Assembly (NCBI GenBank): GCA_026001245.1
Contig: BNZR01000061.1
Span: 1 to 7,968 of the forward strand
DNA length: 7,968 nucleotides
Reading direction: 5' to 3'
Origin: Clostridia bacterium
Lineage (GTDB): Bacteria; Bacillota_A; Clostridia; Oscillospirales; UBA929
Shown: positions 2-7,823 of the stretch, piece by piece
Position numbering within the stretch: position 1 is the stretch's first letter
Layout of the letters: each line of letters opens with the position of its first letter
The notes under the pieces: generated by a model
Databases searched by the model: none
What the model saw: only the letters and a program-made list of their open reading frames with translations
What the model was told of the DNA's origin: nothing
Program-made: the position numbers and the translations under genes

Positions 2-1132
2 CTCGCGCAGGAGGAGTCACGCTCCTTATCGGACAATGTCACTTGGGGGAAACGTAAATCCATGTCAGACGGGAACATCAGCCTACCGTGGTCTGCTTTC
101 CTCGGATACCGCAAGGGCGAGGACGGCTTGCCCGAAATTGTACCCGAAGAAGCTGAAATTGTCCGTCAAATCTACCGCCTATTCATGGAAGGCAAAAGCT
201 ACTCGGCGATTGCCAAAATCCTCACGACTCAAGGAACGCCGTCGCCCACCGGCAAGGACAAATGGTCGCTTGCCACAATCCGCAACATTCTCACCAACGA
301 AACCCACCGCGGCTCCAAACGCCTGCAAAAGACCTACACCACCAATTACCTCACGAAAGCCACCAAGCCGAATGATGGCGAGCTGCCAAGCTACTATATT
401 GAGGATAGTCACGCCGCAATAATACCGCCCGACGAGTGGGATGCGGTGCAAGCCGAAATTGCCAGACGGAAAGAACTCGGCCGCCCTATAAGCTGCCAGA
501 CGCCGTTCTCTACGAAAATCATCTGCGGTGACTGCGGAGCGTTTTTCGGACGGAAAGTGTGGCAAAGCAATACCAAGTGGCGACAGATTGTGTGGCGGTG
601 CAATGACCGCTACAACAAGCGCGGCAAGCGCGATTGCCATACATCGCAGGTCGATGAGAAGAATCTGATGGCGGGATTCATAAAGGCGTTTAATCAGCTG
701 ATGACCTTTCGCGACGGTCTCATAGAGGATTGCCGGACGGTTCAGGCTATGCTTTGCGATACGACTGATATTGATAATGAAATTGCCGAACTGGAGCAAG
801 AAGTCGAGGTTGTCGAGGGCTTGGCGCGGCAAGCGATACAGACCAACGCCCGTGAGGTCATCGACCAATCGGAGTGGTCAGAAAGGAATGGCAAGTACCT
901 CAACCGCCACGTCGAAGCCACCAAGCGGCTGGAGGAACTCGACAAACTGAAAACGGAGTGCCTCGGCAAGAGCAAAGTGCTTGAGGTCTTCATTCGGGAT
1001 ATCAAGAAACAAGAAACGGTTATCACCGACTGGGACGAGAACCTTTGGGCGGCTACGGTCGAGAGCGTGACGGTCGGCGTGGACGGAAAGCTGACATTCA
1101 AGTTTAAGAACGGCAGTGAAGTCACAGTGTGA
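2..1132 (+). CDS. Large serine recombinase, C-terminal part (5' end outside window)
   Basis: Site-specific DNA recombinase of the large serine (resolvase/invertase-type) family, which integrates or excises mobile elements at att sites. The frame is open from the left edge: the residues before the first in-frame ATG (position 62) read LAQEESRSLSDNVTWGKRKS, the typical end of the resolvase domain and its linker helix, so that ATG is internal and the catalytic Ser domain lies left of the window. Next comes the recombinase DNA-binding domain (LGYRKGEDGLPEIVPEEA, then a helical region to about base 370). A zinc ribbon follows, with CxxC cysteines at bases 524 and 533 and further cysteines at 599 and 635. 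A Glu/Lys-rich coiled coil (about bases 770-1010) and a short beta-rich tail end the protein at TGA 1130-1132. The visible part is uninterrupted and ends in a good terminator, so the gene may be intact. Family assignment is confident; target site and parent element cannot be told. Confidence 0.9.
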   Translation, partial: LAQEESRSLSDNVTWGKRKSMSDGNISLPWSAFLGYRKGEDGLPEIVPEEAEIVRQIYRLFMEGKSYSAIAKILTTQGTPSPTGKDKWSLATIRNILTNETHRGSKRLQKTYTTNYLTKATKPNDGELPSYYIEDSHAAIIPPDEWDAVQAEIARRKELGRPISCQTPFSTKIICGDCGAFFGRKVWQSNTKWRQIVWRCNDRYNKRGKRDCHTSQVDEKNLMAGFIKAFNQLMTFRDGLIEDCRTVQAMLCDTTDIDNEIAELEQEVEVVEGLARQAIQTNAREVIDQSEWSERNGKYLNRHVEATKRLEELDKLKTECLGKSKVLEVFIRDIKKQETVITDWDENLWAATVESVTVGVDGKLTFKFKNGSEVTV

Positions 1133-1191: not shown

Positions 1192-1288
1192 GTAATCGTT
1201 AAATTTCAGGTGGTTTCGGTGCATTTTTAATCCGAGCGGTGCATTTTCAAGTGTAATCGTTAAAAGACACAGCCGAGCGGTGCATTTT
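1192..1288. repeat. Short repeat cluster, possible insertion-sequence end
   Basis: CGGTGCATTTT occurs three times (1217-1227, 1237-1247, 1278-1288). The last two copies extend leftwards to CCGAGCGGTGCATTTT (1232-1247, 1273-1288). GTAATCGTTAAA occurs twice (1192-1203, 1253-1264). The first two CGGTGCATTTT copies are exactly 20 bp apart. The cluster ends where homology to a second recombinase begins. Multiple short subterminal repeats of this sort are typical of IS21-family ends, so I infer a residual IS terminus; no transposase gene remains in the window, and the assignment is tentative. Alternatives are a recombinase att region or a regulator-binding array. Confidence 0.6.
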
Positions 1289-2110
1289 ATCAATATCAAG
1301 CACCGTTTCCAAAAAAGCTACACGGTGGACTTCCTGACCAAAAAGAAAAAGATGAACGAAGGCGAGATACCGCAATATTATGTGGAAAACTCTCACGAGG
1401 GTATCATCGAGCCGCTCGTCTACGAGATGGTTCAACAGGAAATGGCTCGGCGCAAACCCGGCAAGAACCGCCACAGCGGGGTCGGGCTATTCGCAAGCCG
1501 TATTAAATGCGGCGACTGCGGCGGCTGGTACGGCTCAAAAGTCTGGCACAGCAACACCAAGTACCGACGGACAATCTGGCAATGCAATCACAAGTTCAAG
1601 AACGACGGAAAATGCAAGACGCCGAACCTCGACGAGGAATCAATCAAGTCGCTTTTCGCCTCGGCGGTCAACAAGCTGCTCGCCGACAAAAACGAGATTA
1701 TCGCCAACTTCGCCACGGTACGGGACGCGCTCTTTTCCACCGCCGATATTGAAGCCGAGGAAAAGGAACTCAAAAGCGAGTTGTCGGTGGTCGCGGAACT
1801 GATGCAGAAATACATCGAGGAGAACGCCCGCGTCGCTCTCGACCAAGCGGAGTACCAAGAACGCTACGACGGGCTGGTCACACGCTTCGACAAGGTGAAG
1901 GCTCGGTACGATGAGGTCACAGGTCTAATCTCGGAGCGGAAGGCTCGCGGCGAGATGATGGACGCCTTTATCGCCGAATTGCAAAAGCAGGACGGGTTTA
2001 TAACCGAGTTTGACGAGCGGCTCTGGTACACGCTCGTAGACTATGCCACGGTCTATAAGGAAAGCGACGTGCGGTTCACATTCAAGAACGGCGCGGAGAT
2101 ACAGGCATAA
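1289..2110 (+). pseudogene. Second large serine recombinase remnant, N-terminus lost
   Basis: Homologous to the C-terminal half of large serine recombinases but divergent from the upstream one: FQKSYTVDFLTKKKK...GEIPQYYVENSHEGII aligns with LQKTYTTNYLTKATK...GELPSYYIEDSHAAII. It contains the zinc ribbon (CGDCGGWYG, cysteine codons at 1508 and 1517; further cysteines at 1583 and 1613), a coiled coil (about bases 1750-1980) and the C-terminal tail, ending at TAA 2108-2110. The frame can be opened at a GTG at 1280, but that codon lies inside the CGGTGCATTTT repeat and has no ribosome binding site, so I do not consider it a real start. The resolvase catalytic domain and most of the recombinase domain are absent, replaced by the repeat cluster. 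It cannot recombine DNA; at most it could yield a DNA-binding fragment. The two copies are too different to be a recent duplication, so successive element insertions are more likely. Confidence 0.85.
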
Positions 2111-2124
2111 CTGGACATCACACC

Positions 2125-2150
2125 AGCTCGCCTTTTAGCGAGTTATTTTA
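2125..2150 (+). terminator. Weak hairpin terminator after the recombinase remnant
   Basis: A 7 bp stem, 2125-2131 with 2138-2144 (one G-U pair), with a 6 nt loop is followed by ATTTTA. It lies 15 bp after the remnant's stop codon, between two convergent genes. The T tract is short, so termination is probably inefficient; the other strand has no T tract. Confidence 0.45.
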
Positions 2151-2348
2151 GGTTGACCCCCACGCCGTATTGCAATGACTACAATACATTGCTTTTCTAT
2201 CACGCATTTCATGGCAATAGGGACATTCTACCAAATCATCAATATTTAGTCCCACCAGTGTTCGATGAAAGCATTTTGAACAATAAAACGTATCTCCTTC
2301 ATCCCAGAGAGTGTTGGAATCCTCGTTTCCACAATTTGCACATTCCAT
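2148..2348 (-). CDS. Small double zinc-ribbon protein (66 aa)
   Basis: Function unknown. The protein contains four CxxC knuckles at residues 3/6, 23/26, 42/45 and 56/59, which reads as two consecutive zinc ribbons separated by an acidic linker (LNIDDLVE). There is no membrane segment or signal peptide. Such small ribbons usually mediate protein-protein or nucleic-acid contacts, but nothing here decides between them. The start is supported by GGAGG eight bases upstream of ATG 2348. It lies 20 bp after the stop of the 166-aa membrane protein, so the two are probably co-transcribed. It converges on the recombinase remnant, with 37 bp between stop codons. It is intact and, given eight appropriately spaced cysteines, very likely a real protein. 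Confidence 0.8.
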   Translation of the reverse strand: MECANCGNEDSNTLWDEGDTFYCSKCFHRTLVGLNIDDLVECPYCHEMRDRKAMYCSHCNTAWGST

Positions 2349-2898: not shown

Positions 2899-3240
2899 TT
2901 AAGCCGCTATTGTGGTAGTGTTTCCAAACCTTTTGACGTTTCTAAATTCCGTTGGGTGCAAATGCACCCTTTTTATGAACCTTGCACCCTTTTGAATTTC
3001 GGGCAAAAAGGAAACGTCAAATTGTATCAAAGACGGGGTTATTATTTCGATGTATATGCACTTAATGCGCCCCTCGTAGCGCGGCAACAATGCTTTGAGA
3101 GCGTCAAGGTTGTCGCCGTGTATGAGCATATTGCCGGTGTCGCTGTCGCCGTGCGTGTACTGCGGTTCGAGTATGCGATACGGCACGTTTTGGTGGTGGT
3201 TTATGACTTTATCTTTGCCGAGCCAAGTTAATATGGGCAT
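2899..3240 (-). pseudogene. Truncated type III-like DNA methyltransferase (Mod), N-terminus only
   Basis: An adenine-specific DNA methyltransferase of the type III Mod kind, reduced to its first 64 residues. The start (MPILTWLGKDKVINHHQ) and the AdoMet-region motif NMLIHGDNLDALKALLPRYE (residues 37-56) are characteristic. The conserved continuation is IKCIYIDPPYNTG, carrying the catalytic DPPY; here it reads IKCIYI then EIITPS, so homology is lost at about base 3047, one residue before the catalytic motif. The frame continues through unrelated sequence, including the palindrome, to a stop at 2899. ATG 3240 has AAAGGAGG seven bases upstream and lies 19 bp after the ATPase stop, so it was the fourth cistron of the ABC-3C operon. 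The product cannot methylate DNA. No restriction subunit (Res) is visible. Identification from the N-terminus is confident; whether the parent system was a full type III R-M or a methyltransferase dedicated to ABC-3C is unknown. Confidence 0.82.
2932..3021. repeat. Nested ~90 bp imperfect palindrome with 20 bp direct repeats
   Basis: The outer arms TTTGACGTTTC (2932-2942) and GAAACGTCAAA (3011-3021) are a perfect 11 bp inverted repeat. Inside them AAATTC (2944-2949) faces GAATTT (2994-2999), and GGGTGCA (2954-2960) faces TGCACCC twice (2963-2969 and 2983-2989). The two TGCACCC copies extend to TGCACCCTTTT and are 20 bp apart. The structure sits immediately beyond the point where the methyltransferase homology stops (about 3047) and upstream of the 166-aa gene. 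It could be the end of a mobile element, a resolution or replication site, or an operator. I do not recognise the element. Confidence 0.7.
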
Positions 3241-3259: not shown

Positions 3260-4957
3260 TTATTCTTCGTCTGCGGGGTCGTCGAGTTCAAACGACAGTT
3301 GCGGTGGAATACTGTCGAACTGCTCGCCATATAACGCGCCATTGTCTTCCGATAATTCAAGGCGTATCGTATCTTCAAGCAATTTTCTGTAATCGCCTTT
3401 TTCGTCAACAGCAATGAATATCTGCTTGCCGGACGGACAGTTGCGATACGCCTCGGTAATTGTAGCGAACGGCTTTGGTGATATGGAATCGAAAACTTGT
3501 GAATCGTGAACCAAAATGGGCAGACACCGTGTGTGGAGAACGCAAAGGTCGAATAATACAAGTCCGCGCAACGCCGTGCCTGTTCCTCTGCCTGTCGCAA
3601 ATTGATAATCACTGATGCCCTTGATTTTTAGGCGAGGGGCATTTAACGGGCTGTCGCTCATTTCAGCAAGTATGCGGGACATTTCGGTGTTTATTGCGCT
3701 TTCAATAACACCAAGTTGCTCGCTCGTGCGTTCTACAAGCCTGCTCTCTGCCGCGCGATGAACTTCACCGCTGTTTTGAGCTTTGTCGTAACCATCGTTA
3801 ATTCTGCGCAGCCGTTCCAGCTCGATACTGATTTCGCTTGTACGCCGTGCAATTCTTGCGCTGACGTTTGGGATTTCGTTTTCTTCCGCAATATGCGCAA
3901 TACGGGAGTTGAAATCGGCTATATCACGTTCCGCGCTGTTAATGGCAGACAGATAGTAGCTTCTCGCATTTGCGAATTCATCGCATAATATAGTCTGTAA
4001 TTTTCGATGAAATCCTTGTATCTCACCTATTAAGTGCAATTCTGCGTTCGGGAAAAATGTGCGCAATTCATCGAAATCATCAGTGATTGCACCGCTCTTT
4101 ATGCCGAGATATTCGTCATTTCTGGCGAGTTTGCTTTCGTAGTAAACTTTTCGTCTTTCGATTTTTTCACGTTCTGTTTCAAGTGTATCTATCATTTGAC
4201 GCGCTTCGGTTGAGCTAAATAGTTCTTCCGGGGAGAATTCACCCTTGGTCAGCCGAGCAATATCGTTTTCCAGTTGCTGTATTCTTTGTTGATTAGCGTA
4301 ATGTTCAATCGGAGTTAGCGTAAAGTCGGATGAGAATTCCGGCACACCCATTTTTTGTGCTTGTTCATAAAATTTATACATATCTCGCTTTTGGGTTTCA
4401 TCGCTTTTTAATGTTTGAACTTCTTCATATTCCTCTTGATTTCTATAAAATCCAAACAACTTTAACAACGCGCTCATAGATGTATCTTTGGTTTCGTTTG
4501 CTGATGCTTTGAGCGGATTATTGCCTATAATATTCCCTTTTGCCATTATCCGAATATACCGCCCCACAATCTTGTGAAACGGCGCGCCGAAAACGTCCAT
4601 CTTATAGTGGTCAAATAGGAATTGGCGGTAGTCATCGATGGAAATTGTGCGTTCAACCTCGGCGTATGTACCTTTGCATACGCTGACTACGCCGCTGTTC
4701 CAAAATTCGCGAGTGAATTTATGCTCGCCGTCATAAAACTTGAATGTAAAATTAATCTTATGTTGGCTGTATTTGAAACGAGCTTTGATATCCGCAAGGT
4801 TCGAGTATCTGTTCTCGCCGAACACAAAGCCAAGCACCGTTAAGAACGTGCTTTTGCCGACATCGTTTCCGGTGCCGAATATCGTGTTAAGCCCCTCGCG
4901 AAAAATAATAGGCTCGCCTTGCGTTTTGAAATCGTCAGATTGAATTTCCACCAACAT
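3260..4957 (-). CDS. ABC/SMC-like ATPase of an ABC-3C system (DUF2326 type, 565 aa)
   Basis: Predicted nucleotide-driven DNA-associated ATPase, cytoplasmic, related to Rad50/SMC/RecN-type ABC ATPases. The N-terminus has the family pattern of a GLNTIFG strand followed by the Walker A loop NDVGKST (Lys35). The middle (about residues 190-420) is long, charged and helical with several coiled-coil stretches (e.g. TLETEREKIERRKVYYESKL), the usual hairpin insertion. The C-terminal ATPase half carries the signature-like ATGRGTGTALRGL (about 454-466), then the Walker B-type strand ILVHDSQVFDSI with Asp485, and the final strand KQIFIAVDEKGDY; the HDS...FD motif is typical of DUF2326. No transmembrane segments, so not a transporter. 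GGAGGA eight bases upstream supports ATG 4957, which overlaps the end of the middle-component gene by 23 bp, implying translational coupling. All three visible ATPase motifs are present, so it is probably active. The truncated methyltransferase follows 19 bp downstream. Confidence 0.85.
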   Translation of the reverse strand: MLVEIQSDDFKTQGEPIIFREGLNTIFGTGNDVGKSTFLTVLGFVFGENRYSNLADIKARFKYSQHKINFTFKFYDGEHKFTREFWNSGVVSVCKGTYAEVERTISIDDYRQFLFDHYKMDVFGAPFHKIVGRYIRIMAKGNIIGNNPLKASANETKDTSMSALLKLFGFYRNQEEYEEVQTLKSDETQKRDMYKFYEQAQKMGVPEFSSDFTLTPIEHYANQQRIQQLENDIARLTKGEFSPEELFSSTEARQMIDTLETEREKIERRKVYYESKLARNDEYLGIKSGAITDDFDELRTFFPNAELHLIGEIQGFHRKLQTILCDEFANARSYYLSAINSAERDIADFNSRIAHIAEENEIPNVSARIARRTSEISIELERLRRINDGYDKAQNSGEVHRAAESRLVERTSEQLGVIESAINTEMSRILAEMSDSPLNAPRLKIKGISDYQFATGRGTGTALRGLVLFDLCVLHTRCLPILVHDSQVFDSISPKPFATITEAYRNCPSGKQIFIAVDEKGDYRKLLEDTIRLELSEDNGALYGEQFDSIPPQLSFELDDPADEE

Positions 4958-5177
4958 AAGTCAATTCCTCCGTATCATCTCGGAAAGCTATCTGCCGCAG
5001 AGCAAAAAGCGCGTCTAACGCCTCAACGAACAATTGCAAATCAGCACTTAGTCTGTTTCTAACCGTGGCAAATAGTTTAGTTGCGGACGTGTCGCCGTTT
5101 TTCAAGATGCCGAGTATTAGCGAAAAGTACGGCAAGATGCTCTCGTCATATGTGGTAACTTTATCGGGCATATGCAT
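4935..5177 (-). CDS. ABC-3C middle component (80 aa)
   Basis: Small adaptor-type protein that in ABC-3C systems links the ATPase to the third component; the family is small, mostly helical and probably winged-helix-like. The pattern MPDKVTTYDESILPYFSLILGIL followed by a short helical core (LQLFVEALDALFALRQI) and a C-terminal beta strand (ELTYV) resembles the MC6/MC7 group. I cannot decide the subfamily. The frame is open from a GTG at 5192, but GAGGTG (5185-5190) lies seven bases before ATG 5177 and would be inside the coding region with the GTG start, so I choose 5177; ATG 5171 is an alternative. It overlaps the preceding gene by 17 bp and the following ATPase gene by 23 bp, in different frames, the arrangement of tightly coupled subunits of one complex. 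Confidence 0.78.
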   Translation of the reverse strand: MHMPDKVTTYDESILPYFSLILGILKNGDTSATKLFATVRNRLSADLQLFVEALDALFALRQIAFRDDTEELTYVGGNSI

Positions 5178-6501
5178 CGTTGAACACCTCACAATTCTGA
5201 ACGAAGAATGACGCTACTATGCGGCAGGTTGATTTATCGTCCGTTTTCGCTTGCTCCGCTATCCAGTCTACAATTATATTGAATATGCTTTGCCGTGATT
5301 GTTTGCCGAGCATCGTATCGCAAAAGTCCTGTATTTGTTCGGCTATCATCGTAAACTTAATGCGTTTCTTGCCGAGCGGAATGGGTTCGTCCTTTAATCG
5401 CTTGAACGTTTCTTCAATAAAACAGTAATGCTCTTGAACATCGCGGCGAATGTCACGGATAAGCGAAAGGTTGTCCATATCGTTAGGAATCTTCTGCGTT
5501 ATGCGCAGCGGACTATACCGAAGTTCGGTGGTTTTCCCCATTTCAGCAAGTTTTCGCTGTGACTCGGCAATCTCCTCATCGGTCTGGCAAGAGATAACAC
5601 GCAAAACATCTTCAATACTACTGTCAATTTTTGAAGTGCGTTTTATCGTATCGATATCAGCAGAGAGTGCAAGTTGACTTTTAATTTTAGCAAGGTCAAA
5701 CACATATGTGAAACCCTTATCTGCTTTATACATTTCTGCGTGCTTTTTACAAAGCAGGATTTTATTTTTCCGCAACTTGCTCCAAGCGTCAAACGTGGAA
5801 TCGCCTATATCCGCCAACGCACATAACGCCTCGAAGTCTTCTGTCCCAACCACATCAAGTATATCTTGCGGCAGTACATCAACAATGCCTGTGTTGCGCT
5901 GTTGATTGCTGCCGCTTTCAATTATCAACTGGTCATCACACGTCTTGCCATTTTCAGGGTACATACAACGCCCGCCGACTTCCTCAAACAAACGCAACAG
6001 GTCTTCAGCGGAAACGGATAGTTCATTGGAAAATTCAGTTAAGCCGTCCGTTGGCTTACGCGACTTCCTGCCGCCGTTTTTCCCTGCCGCAATCTCATTG
6101 AGTATGTCAACAAACATTTCCGTTAGTCTGTTCGGCATATCGGTTGGTTCGACATCAATTCCGTGATTTCGCACAGTTTTGATTAATTGCTCCCGCCCTA
6201 CATCGGATATGTTCCAAATAAGATTCTCGAATTCTTCTTTGCTGTCACTGTTTATGCGCTTGATAATCATTTTTGCTTTGTCGGCGACGATGTTTCGGTC
6301 GCCTTCATAGATGTAACGTAAAAGCCGAGCATTTTCACCTATTTTATAAGGGTAGTAATGGCCTTGTGCGGCATCTTCCTTTTCAATCTTTGTGCGCGGC
6401 TTTTTCATAATGGCGTTGATTAGAGCAACAACGAATCCGTCTGTGTTTTTACCCGCACTTAAAAAGGGAGAAAGCATATTTGCAAACTCATAAAACTCCA
6501 T
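5161..6501 (-). CDS. ABC-3C third component (CTD-type protein, 446 aa), promoter-proximal
   Basis: First gene of the operon and the likely effector or target-recognition partner of the ATPase in an ABC three-component system. It is soluble, with no signal peptide or membrane segment. Residues 1-135 form a helical N-terminal region (LRYIYEGDRNIVADKAKMII), followed by a basic Gly/Lys/Arg linker (about 140-150). A central region has Cys179, Cys188, Cys251 and His254 (CMYPENGKTC ... ILLCKKHAEMY), which I read as a zinc-binding, HNH/treble-clef-like core; I cannot identify complete nuclease catalytic residues. The C-terminal 150 residues are again helical (SLIRDIRRDVQEHYCFIEE ... SIFNIIVDWIAEQA) and correspond to the ABC-3C-type C-terminal domain. 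AGGGGTGG upstream supports ATG 6501. Assignment rests partly on context with the middle component and DUF2326 ATPase; the exact CTD class is uncertain. Confidence 0.75.
   Translation of the reverse strand: MEFYEFANMLSPFLSAGKNTDGFVVALINAIMKKPRTKIEKEDAAQGHYYPYKIGENARLLRYIYEGDRNIVADKAKMIIKRINSDSKEEFENLIWNISDVGREQLIKTVRNHGIDVEPTDMPNRLTEMFVDILNEIAAGKNGGRKSRKPTDGLTEFSNELSVSAEDLLRLFEEVGGRCMYPENGKTCDDQLIIESGSNQQRNTGIVDVLPQDILDVVGTEDFEALCALADIGDSTFDAWSKLRKNKILLCKKHAEMYKADKGFTYVFDLAKIKSQLALSADIDTIKRTSKIDSSIEDVLRVISCQTDEEIAESQRKLAEMGKTTELRYSPLRITQKIPNDMDNLSLIRDIRRDVQEHYCFIEETFKRLKDEPIPLGKKRIKFTMIAEQIQDFCDTMLGKQSRQSIFNIIVDWIAEQAKTDDKSTCRIVASFFVQNCEVFNDAYAR
5185..5190 (-). promoter_or_regulatory. Ribosome binding site that decides the middle-component start
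   Basis: GAGGTG lies seven bases before ATG 5177, inside the 3' end of the upstream gene. It overlaps the alternative GTG start codon at 5192-5190, which argues for initiation at 5177 and for translation coupled to the upstream cistron. Confidence 0.65.
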
Positions 6502-6528: not shown

Positions 6529-6553
6529 GTTCCTTACTGTTCCAAACCGTTCC
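6529..6553. repeat. Three GTTCC repeats in exact 10 bp phase
   Basis: GTTCC starts at 6529, 6539 and 6549, one every 10 bp (GGAAC on the transcribed minus strand). The cluster lies 28-52 bases before the start codon of the first ABC-3C gene and downstream of its promoter, so it is in the mRNA leader. One helical turn per unit suggests a cooperative protein-binding array, or a repeated motif in the RNA; it may also be chance. Confidence 0.5.
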
Positions 6554-6679: not shown

Positions 6680-6708
6680 ATTATAACACACTCGTCTTAT
6701 AAAGTCAA
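6680..6708 (-). promoter_or_regulatory. Strong sigma-A promoter of the ABC-3C operon
   Basis: Read on the minus strand: -35 TTGACT (6708-6703), a 17 bp spacer, and -10 TATAAT (6685-6680). This is five of six and six of six consensus matches at ideal spacing. Transcription should begin near 6673, giving a leader of about 170 nt before ATG 6501. Nothing else in the window reads as strongly, so the operon is probably expressed unless repressed. Confidence 0.85.
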
Positions 6709-6778
6709 CGACAAAATAGCGAAAAACCCAATTTTCAGTCGAAGGGCGGACCAATAAAAATTTCTTAAAAAACTTTTT

Positions 6779-6813
6779 CAAACAGTCCAAATGGTGAACT
6801 GTTTGACTGTTAG
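6779..6813. promoter_or_regulatory. Operator-like ACTGTT half-site array
   Basis: CAAACAGT (6779-6786) and ACTGTTTG (6798-6805) form a perfect 8 bp inverted repeat with an 11 bp spacer. A further directly repeated ACTGTT follows at 6806-6811, so AACAGTC (6781-6787) can also pair with GACTGTT (6805-6811). The array lies 37-71 bp upstream of the HTH gene and about 70-100 bp from the divergent operon promoter, so autoregulation by that HTH protein is an attractive inference. No convincing plus-strand -10 was found. Confidence 0.5.
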
Positions 6814-7179: not shown

Positions 7180-7635
7180 ATGAATGAAGCACAACGGAAT
7201 CCAAATGCAATGCCCATCCGCGCCGCACCTTTCGCACACCAAATCGCCACCTACAACGCCGCACTTGATGCCTTTGACGAAACCGCTCCACCCAAACTTG
7301 ACGAGAACGGCAAACCCACAAGTATAACGAGCCGTGGCTACGCGCTACTCATGGAAATGGGTCTGGGGAAAAGTATCACATCAATTGCGATTGAGGGCAA
7401 TCTCTACCTTAACAAACTCATTCGCAAAACGCTCATAGTCGCGCCGCTAAGCATCCTCGGCGTTTGGGAGGAAGAGCACCGCAAATTCGCCGATTTTGAT
7501 TACACACTTGCAATCCTTGATGGTTCTCTTGCCAAGAAAGCGGACACTTTACGCCACATGGGCGGGAAGTTGCTCCAAATTGCCACCCGCAAAGTTCCTG
7601 CGAACGCGGCACGAACGAAAATATCAACAAGATGA
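7180..7635 (+). pseudogene. SNF2-type helicase, N-terminal fragment fused to IS30 remnant
   Basis: Element-encoded SNF2-family (superfamily 2) ATPase/helicase. The first about 133 residues keep the family order: Q-motif-like HQIATYNAALDAF (20-32), SRGYALLMEMGLGKS with Walker A Lys64 (51-65), motif Ia IVAPLSILGVWEEEH (86-100), and FADFDYTLAILDGS. Homology ends around GGKLLQI (base about 7580); the expected next segment, with the DExx-type Walker B and all of the second RecA-like lobe, is missing. The last residues, to a stop at 7635, are an out-of-frame reading of an IS30 transposase remnant. ATG 7180 is preceded by AGGAGG at nine bases. Full-length members are several hundred residues, so at least two thirds is lost; the product cannot be an active helicase. 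Confidence 0.85.
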
Positions 7636-7823
7636 TTCGGCGGCATATTCCCAAAGGAACACCAATCGAAAATTACACCGTCGCCGACATCCAGCGCATT
7701 GAAGACTGGATAAATGACTATCCGCGCCAAATATTGGGTTGGAAGCACTCCGCTCAGCTGTTCAAGCAGGAATTGGAAAAGTTGAAGCTGGAGGGCGATG
7801 AATTCTTGGCCGATACTTCATAA
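7581..7823 (+). mobile_element. IS30-family transposase remnant (C-terminal end)
   Basis: In frame with 7632 the reading CHPQSSCERGTNENINKMIRR, then HIPKGTPIENYT and IEDWINDYPRQILGWK, matches the end of IS30-family DDE transposases, including the GTNEN segment bearing the catalytic Glu and the IPKGT/NYPRxILG motifs. It ends at TAA 7821-7823. The N-terminal HTH and the two catalytic Asp residues are absent because the copy starts abruptly inside the helicase frame. The sequence ACGGCAATTGAA after the stop (7827-7838) might be part of the right terminal inverted repeat, but with the left end gone this cannot be tested here. It is non-functional. Confidence 0.8.

Follow-up and report, generated by a model that had tools for sequence, protein, structure and literature searches.

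The 7,968-nucleotide stretch analysed here (hereafter the window; Clostridia bacterium, contig BNZR01000061.1 of assembly GCA_026001245.1) carries on its minus strand three overlapping genes that form an ABC three-component (ABC-3C) operon; complexes of this type are known and are suspected of acting against viruses. Judged by family profiles, the ABC-3C identity of the three genes, which encode the A protein, a middle component (MC) and an ATPase, is secure (Table 1). Our tentative reading, to which we give close to an even chance, is that the operon belongs to a kind carried by phages and prophages, in which the A protein no longer cuts DNA and would act through its N-terminal domain (N-domain).

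Identity and conservation of the operon

In hmmscan searches, the A protein matched CTD11 (PF20277) at residues 306-440 (E 2.9e-22; 80.1 bits, cut-off 27.7), the product of the gene between the other two matched MC7 (PF20292; 57.4 bits, cut-off 27), and the ATPase matched DUF2326 (PF10088; 44.4 bits, cut-off 28.7); in NCBIfam, none of the three had a match near the cut-offs. Coverage of the profiles is nearly full (CTD11 9-138 of 138, MC7 1-69 of 69, phrog_5467 1-549 of 552), and three consecutive long open reading frames (ORFs) that each cover nearly an entire family profile are not a matter of chance. The original prediction, made from the sequence alone, had described a DUF2326-type ATPase with Walker A, signature-like and HDS/FD motifs and had taken the 80-residue protein for an ABC-3C middle component. 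Both assignments stand: all of the motifs are present (HDS..FD at ATPase residues 484-490), and the profile search that it proposed placed the 80- and 446-residue proteins in the ABC-3C families MC7 and CTD11.

The predicted gene layout also agrees with the ORF coordinates. All three genes are full-length, and the A and MC genes overlap by 17 bp (5161-5177) and the MC and ATPase genes by 23 bp (4935-4957), the MC frame being counted from the ATG at 5177 (80 residues; the ORF list gives 85 from a GTG). The ribosome-binding sites described for each gene can be read directly as purine-rich words before the start codons (AAAGGGGTGG, GAGGTG and GGAGGA), and the predicted near-consensus promoter is present, the 601 bp scanned containing two promoter-like sites against a mean of 0.7 in shuffled sequences. 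An inverted repeat upstream of the promoter is a possible operator or terminator. Immediately 5′ of the A gene, the leader (6529-6553, minus strand) contains the word GGAAC three times at 10-bp spacing.

A search of 5.8 billion proteins with the A protein returned 36 proteins, the window's own included, and no other A-protein relative above 35% identity; the best identity of the window ATPase to its relatives is 32%. A scan of genome contigs yielded 77 loci. Gene calling gave a middle gene for 73 of them and an ATPase for 75, although several calls look wrong or truncated (e.g., those of the middle gene in L025, L044 and L074, and of six ATPases below 410 residues). With the window included, MC7 matched 71 of 74 middle proteins and DUF2326 matched 73 of 76 ATPases, indicating that the operon is conserved in relatives. 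This co-occurrence further bears out DUF2326 as an ABC-3C ATPase type; ATPase homologues adjoin both partner genes in the relatives, the opposite of what would have told against the original prediction.

Short, long and HNH-less A proteins

Two main kinds of CTD11 protein can be distinguished. Short A proteins (about 250-300 residues) have an HNH domain with the elements AHIYP, N and CxxCH, whereas in long ones (about 385-450 residues, one of 497) the first zinc cysteine is preceded by 154-265 residues and the histidine pair is missing. The window's A protein is of the long kind. A smaller set of nine (L006-L010, L012, L015, P0005 and P0007), here called HNH-less, consists of a front part plus CTD11. 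The genome loci divide into 23 long, seven HNH-less and 47 short.

We pooled an alignment of the window, the 77 loci and 30 proteins with a second set of 34 proteins (29 new plus P0014, P0030, P0032, P0033 and P0037) and 21 of 22 viral-contig loci, L098 having no ORF. Both HNH histidines were present in 0 of 77 long versus 68 of 71 short-length proteins, counts in which near-copies were kept, some viral contigs being the same DNA as genome loci. The 77 long proteins counted here all have an HNH region; 68 of them retain neither histidine, and 69 retain all four zinc cysteines. Fifteen further proteins, in which the HNH region is absent or too small, were left unscored. The three short-length exceptions (L044, P0034 and P0055) have long-type residues and start just before or within the HNH part, as though their fronts had been removed. 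Within the second set, the histidine pair occurs in ten short rows and no long row; P0052, P0055, P0061 and P0066 are fragments or another type, and P0059, with 135 residues in front, lacks both histidines. Searching 398 genomes by family profile yielded 12 CTD11 matches above the cut-off, namely L001 again (as L108), L109, which is long and has kept the first histidine but lost the second, eight loci with long-type residues and no histidine pair, one short locus with an intact HNH domain, and one of another type.

The window's A protein does not have the catalytic histidine pair of an HNH domain: Asp208 takes the place of the general-base histidine and Ala255 that of the metal-binding histidine, the fourth zinc ligand being His254. 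The first HNH histidine aligns with the histidine that is alanine in the deposited DNA-bound Cap5 chain. The HNH fold of the window's A protein is apparently catalytically dead.

The ATPase provides a marker separate from the A protein. In a quick tree of 70 rows, from which L018 and L034 (ATPase uncalled) and six truncated calls were left out, the short kind forms one side of a branch with a Shimodaira–Hasegawa-like approximate likelihood ratio (SH-aLRT) support of 99, and the HNH-less set is nested within the long kind. A careful tree of 57 rows, built without the window, L001 and L058 and with ten near-copies thinned, supported the HNH-less set at 100/100 and the short/long branch at 93/97, the latter being recovered in 90% of 200 bootstrap trees. 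The trees are unrooted; loss of HNH catalysis would be the derived state because the HNH residues are shared with Cap5.

Most of the long branch has a helical N-domain in common. No catalytic signature was found in that of the window, nor was any enzyme recognised in the long A protein. The N-domain was matched in 92 of 93 long or HNH-less proteins and in six of the eight long-type loci of the 398-genome search. Among 44 nonredundant N-domains drawn from the 92, the best columns were Leu (82%), Phe (77%), Phe (70%) and Arg (66%), so that the top columns are hydrophobic and the best polar one is the arginine. By comparison, the HNH columns for His, Asn and Cys reach 100% in 50 nonredundant short proteins; these proteins were picked by their AH motif, which biases the first His column and leaves the others unbiased. 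As a separate observation, a phage protein of 141 residues in BFVD (A0A8S5MGA8) is predicted to adopt the N-domain fold from end to end (template modelling (TM) score 0.68, E 8.1e-3) and is possibly a stand-alone form of the domain.

These features bear on a rival explanation that we regard as unlikely, though worth serious attention: having replaced the HNH nuclease, the N-domain would itself be a toxic effector (e.g., one that targets the membrane or translation, or a nuclease not recognised as such), and the system would still kill the cell. A review places the effector of ABC-3C and Lamassu systems at the N-terminus (PMC10586767), and the front part and the absence of HNH histidines coincide on one branch. 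The seven genome loci devoid of any HNH domain and the HamA profile matches in three of 45 long or HNH-less proteins point the same way. However, no conserved polar site was found in the N-domain, and a search of solved folds found no clear relative of it, which is weak evidence.

Phage carriage and the linked regulator gene

The 21 viral-contig loci with an ORF, from a scan confirmed against long-type sequence, comprise 19 long and two short, an excess of the long type relative to the genome loci (Fisher p 3.7e-5; 0.007 when five unconfirmed viral stretches and L098 are counted as short). When 50,697 annotated phage records were searched, ATPase queries from the window, L011 (long), and L026 and L066 (short) all found the same five records. 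In the four records fetched, every A protein lacks both HNH histidines and matches the CTD11 profile, and three of the four match the N-domain profile. Prophage replication genes adjoin some long loci: among 56 scanned of 104 upstream proteins of long or HNH-less loci, chosen from loci already showing phage genes, there were seven matches to a phage exonuclease family, seven to a single-stranded DNA-binding family and six to a DNA polymerase family.

Of 30 long or HNH-less loci, 24 (17 of 23 long, 7 of 7 HNH-less) have a small Cro/C1-type regulator gene no more than 400 nt past the ATPase, compared with 0 of 45 testable short loci, and a wider same-strand look gave 24 of 30 versus 0 of 47; because the loci share ancestry, these counts are not independent events. 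The assignment was made by PF13443 in the four proteins scanned, and L044 was counted as long. In the 398-genome search, the regulator was present in seven of eight long-type loci, preceding the A gene in six, and was absent from the short and other-type loci. Three of the four phage records also carry it; the fourth (L128) ends 50 bp past the ATPase. Separately, six of the seven HNH-less loci (L006, L007, L009, L010, L012 and L015) encode a related protein of about 300 residues roughly 200 bp past the ATPase. That of L010, the one scanned, is a DUF4238 protein, possibly a separate effector.

Phage carriage and the regulator could be taken to mean that the complex serves the carrier phage in lysogeny control or genome maintenance, with the regulator as its partner and no role in defence. 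That idea fits the linkage itself and also the operons' divergent placement next to genes for phage replication or an antirepressor. Nevertheless, the neighbouring genes differ between loci, with type I, II and III methyltransferase matches among them, and the regulator is missing from six of 30 loci and from the window; we consider this explanation improbable. Very improbable, in our judgement, is a counter-defence decoy, in which a phage ABC-3C system with a dead effector would poison the host's active ABC-3C system through mixed complexes. Although phage carriage and a dead HNH fold would fit a decoy, and the released Lamassu effector is reported to act as a tetramer (PMC12409362), the A protein alone would suffice for it, yet the MC and an ATPase with Walker A are retained. 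Moreover, the five genomes with a long locus that were examined hold one CTD11 match each.

Under our preferred reading, that of an A protein that no longer cuts DNA, the ATPase and MC would sense invading DNA or a replication intermediate, as proposed for Lamassu, and would release or oligomerise the A protein through CTD11. The A protein would then work via its N-domain by binding DNA or protein, without nuclease attack, and the HNH fold would be retained as a zinc scaffold. The likely benefit to the carrier phage would be exclusion of competing phages or plasmids. A broader proposal, which we hold to be speculative and rather doubtful, is that the long kind represents a branch of the ABC-3C/Lamassu superfamily that is specialised for phages and works without a nuclease. 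Such a branch would have gained a helical N-domain for which no fold relative was found, lost HNH catalysis, kept the zinc scaffold and often added the Cro/C1 regulator, one sub-branch losing the HNH part; it would restrict invaders by binding or silencing, comparable with Smc5/6 silencing of extrachromosomal DNA.

Several observations weigh against the preferred reading. Eight long proteins keep the first HNH histidine and one keeps the second. The HamA (DUF1837) matches reach a best E of 2.3e-5, and one of the 45 proteins matches SduA. The fronts of L110 (257 residues), L111 (259 residues) and L129 give no N-domain profile match, so the long front is not a single recognised domain in all cases; L105 has only 87 residues in front. 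The HamA matches and the three unmatched fronts weaken the claim of one enzyme-free N-domain, and a poorly conserved domain can still be an effector. The regulator is absent from one long-type locus (L121, also given as having 87 residues in front) of the 398-genome search, and the same-strand look found no Cro/C1-type gene around the window operon. The window ATPase also has the longest end branch (2.11); with that branch and no regulator gene, the window copy may be relaxing.

Surroundings of the window operon and comparison with known systems

The original prediction had placed the operon in a decayed mobile island with everything around it broken. Mobile surroundings are supported by recombinase, transposase and phage-family helicase matches, the recombinase pieces belonging to an integrase family. 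The claim of general breakage holds for four neighbours with partial-family matches only (the recombinase at 1280-2110, the type III methyltransferase, the helicase and the transposase tail) but not for two small ORFs, 2369-2869 and 2148-2348 (minus strand), which appear whole and have a low G+C content (0.38); the recombinase at 2-1132 runs off the window's edge.

Table 1. Features of the window and of the proteins encoded by the operon
Feature	Coordinates	Strand	Description and matches
A gene	5161..6501	-	446-aa CTD11 protein (LmuA-like 'effector' component); PF20277 and PADLOC LmuA PDLC03857 matches
MC gene	4935..5177	-	80-aa middle component 7; PF20292 E 1.5e-15, phrog_6259 E 3.5e-14
ATPase gene	3260..4957	-	565-aa DUF2326 ABC ATPase; PF10088 E 1.8e-11, phrog_5467 E 2.6e-82 over 1-549/552
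N-domain	6076..6501	-	A residues 1-142, eight helices
HNH fold without catalytic histidines	5716..6018	-	A residues 162-262
CTD11 domain	5182..5586	-	FVQNCEVF end motif
Walker A	4847..4876	-	GTGNDVGKST, ATPase residues 28-37
DUF2326 part	3347..3607	-	GTGT signature-like and HDS motifs
Promoter-like site	6680..6708	-	TTGACT-17-TATAAT, extended -10; 11/12 consensus positions, 179 bp before first start codon
Inverted repeat	6778..6806	-	TCAAACAGT/ACTGTTTGA; upstream of operon promoter
Serine recombinase, cut by window start	2..1132	+	phrog_95 E 1e-77, 214-579/651
Serine recombinase fragment without front	1280..2110	+	phrog_95 E 1.1e-40, 322-579/651
Type III methyltransferase, first 65 codons, then broken	3046..3240	-	PDLC03644 E 1.5e-31, profile 1-67 of 542
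SNF2-type helicase fragment, phage family, divergent from operon	7180..7635	+	phrog_62 E 1.6e-15, 687-774/1881; PF00176
Transposase C-terminal fragment	7632..7823	+	phrog_4646 E 1e-16, 292-342/344

The two small ORFs encode 166 residues with a hydrophobic C-terminal stretch (2369-2869) and 66 zinc-ribbon-like residues (2148-2348), neither with a family match above the curated cut-off. Between the recombinase pieces, at 1215-1290, CCGAGCGGTGCATTTT occurs in two exact copies 41 bp apart and a third, partial one, perhaps an old recombination site. The methyltransferase starts 20 bp past the ATPase stop. In the phage locus L129, an annotated methyltransferase begins 11 bp past the ATPase, and next to it comes a large protein containing a Walker-A-like stretch; L055 has consecutive regulator, methyltransferase and ResIII genes. 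The window's methyltransferase may be former operon cargo, although the association is numerically weak.

In such surroundings, the operon could be an ordinary relic that died recently as the passenger of a decayed element. Besides the gene fragments around it, its ATPase differs at 8 of 54 conserved columns, compared with a median of 2 over all rows; two other full-length ATPases deviate similarly, however (L063 at nine, L058 at seven). The three full-length frames, their ribosome-binding sites and the promoter all persist, and the Walker A lysine, the HD residues and the CTD11 end motif are retained, which leaves the relic highly improbable in our view. The surroundings would have decayed while the operon persisted with its own promoter. 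Selection for function, as originally proposed, cannot be shown, given A relatives at 35% identity or less, the 32% of the best ATPase relative and the altered ATPase columns.

A review places ABC-3C in the Lamassu superfamily, and these systems are pictured as a killing enzyme set free by a sensor (PMC10586767), with the SMC-like subunit of Lamassu as the likely sensor and an effector subunit that is released and assembles into a tetramer (PMC10586767, PMC12409362). A branch that keeps the sensor and docking parts without a recognised enzyme would allow one to ask what the sensor complex does alone, and in the long branch nature would have separated sensing from killing. Its prominence among viral contigs (19 of 21 loci) would make the long kind a tool of phage-phage competition.

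Compared with known systems, the window operon has the three-part layout of Lamassu (LmuA, LmuB and LmuC; DdmABC). Of 45 long or HNH-less proteins, 27 are hit by the PADLOC LmuA profile PDLC03857; its match to the window's A protein (E 2e-16) is limited to residues 1-160, and the window ATPase matches LmuB weakly (E 0.0015). No Cap4 is among the matches listed. PDLC04772 of the PADLOC candidate PDC-M68A likewise matches 27 of the 45 proteins. The match to the Cap5 HNH domain of CBASS is limited to the HNH part, and the window lacks both its catalytic and its metal-binding histidine. Closest in make-up is ABC-3C with CTD11, MC7 and DUF2326 (PF20277, PF20292 and PF10088), with which the window shares all three families, gene order and overlaps, although the short ABC-3C relatives have an HNH domain with both histidines, whereas the window and the long kind do not.

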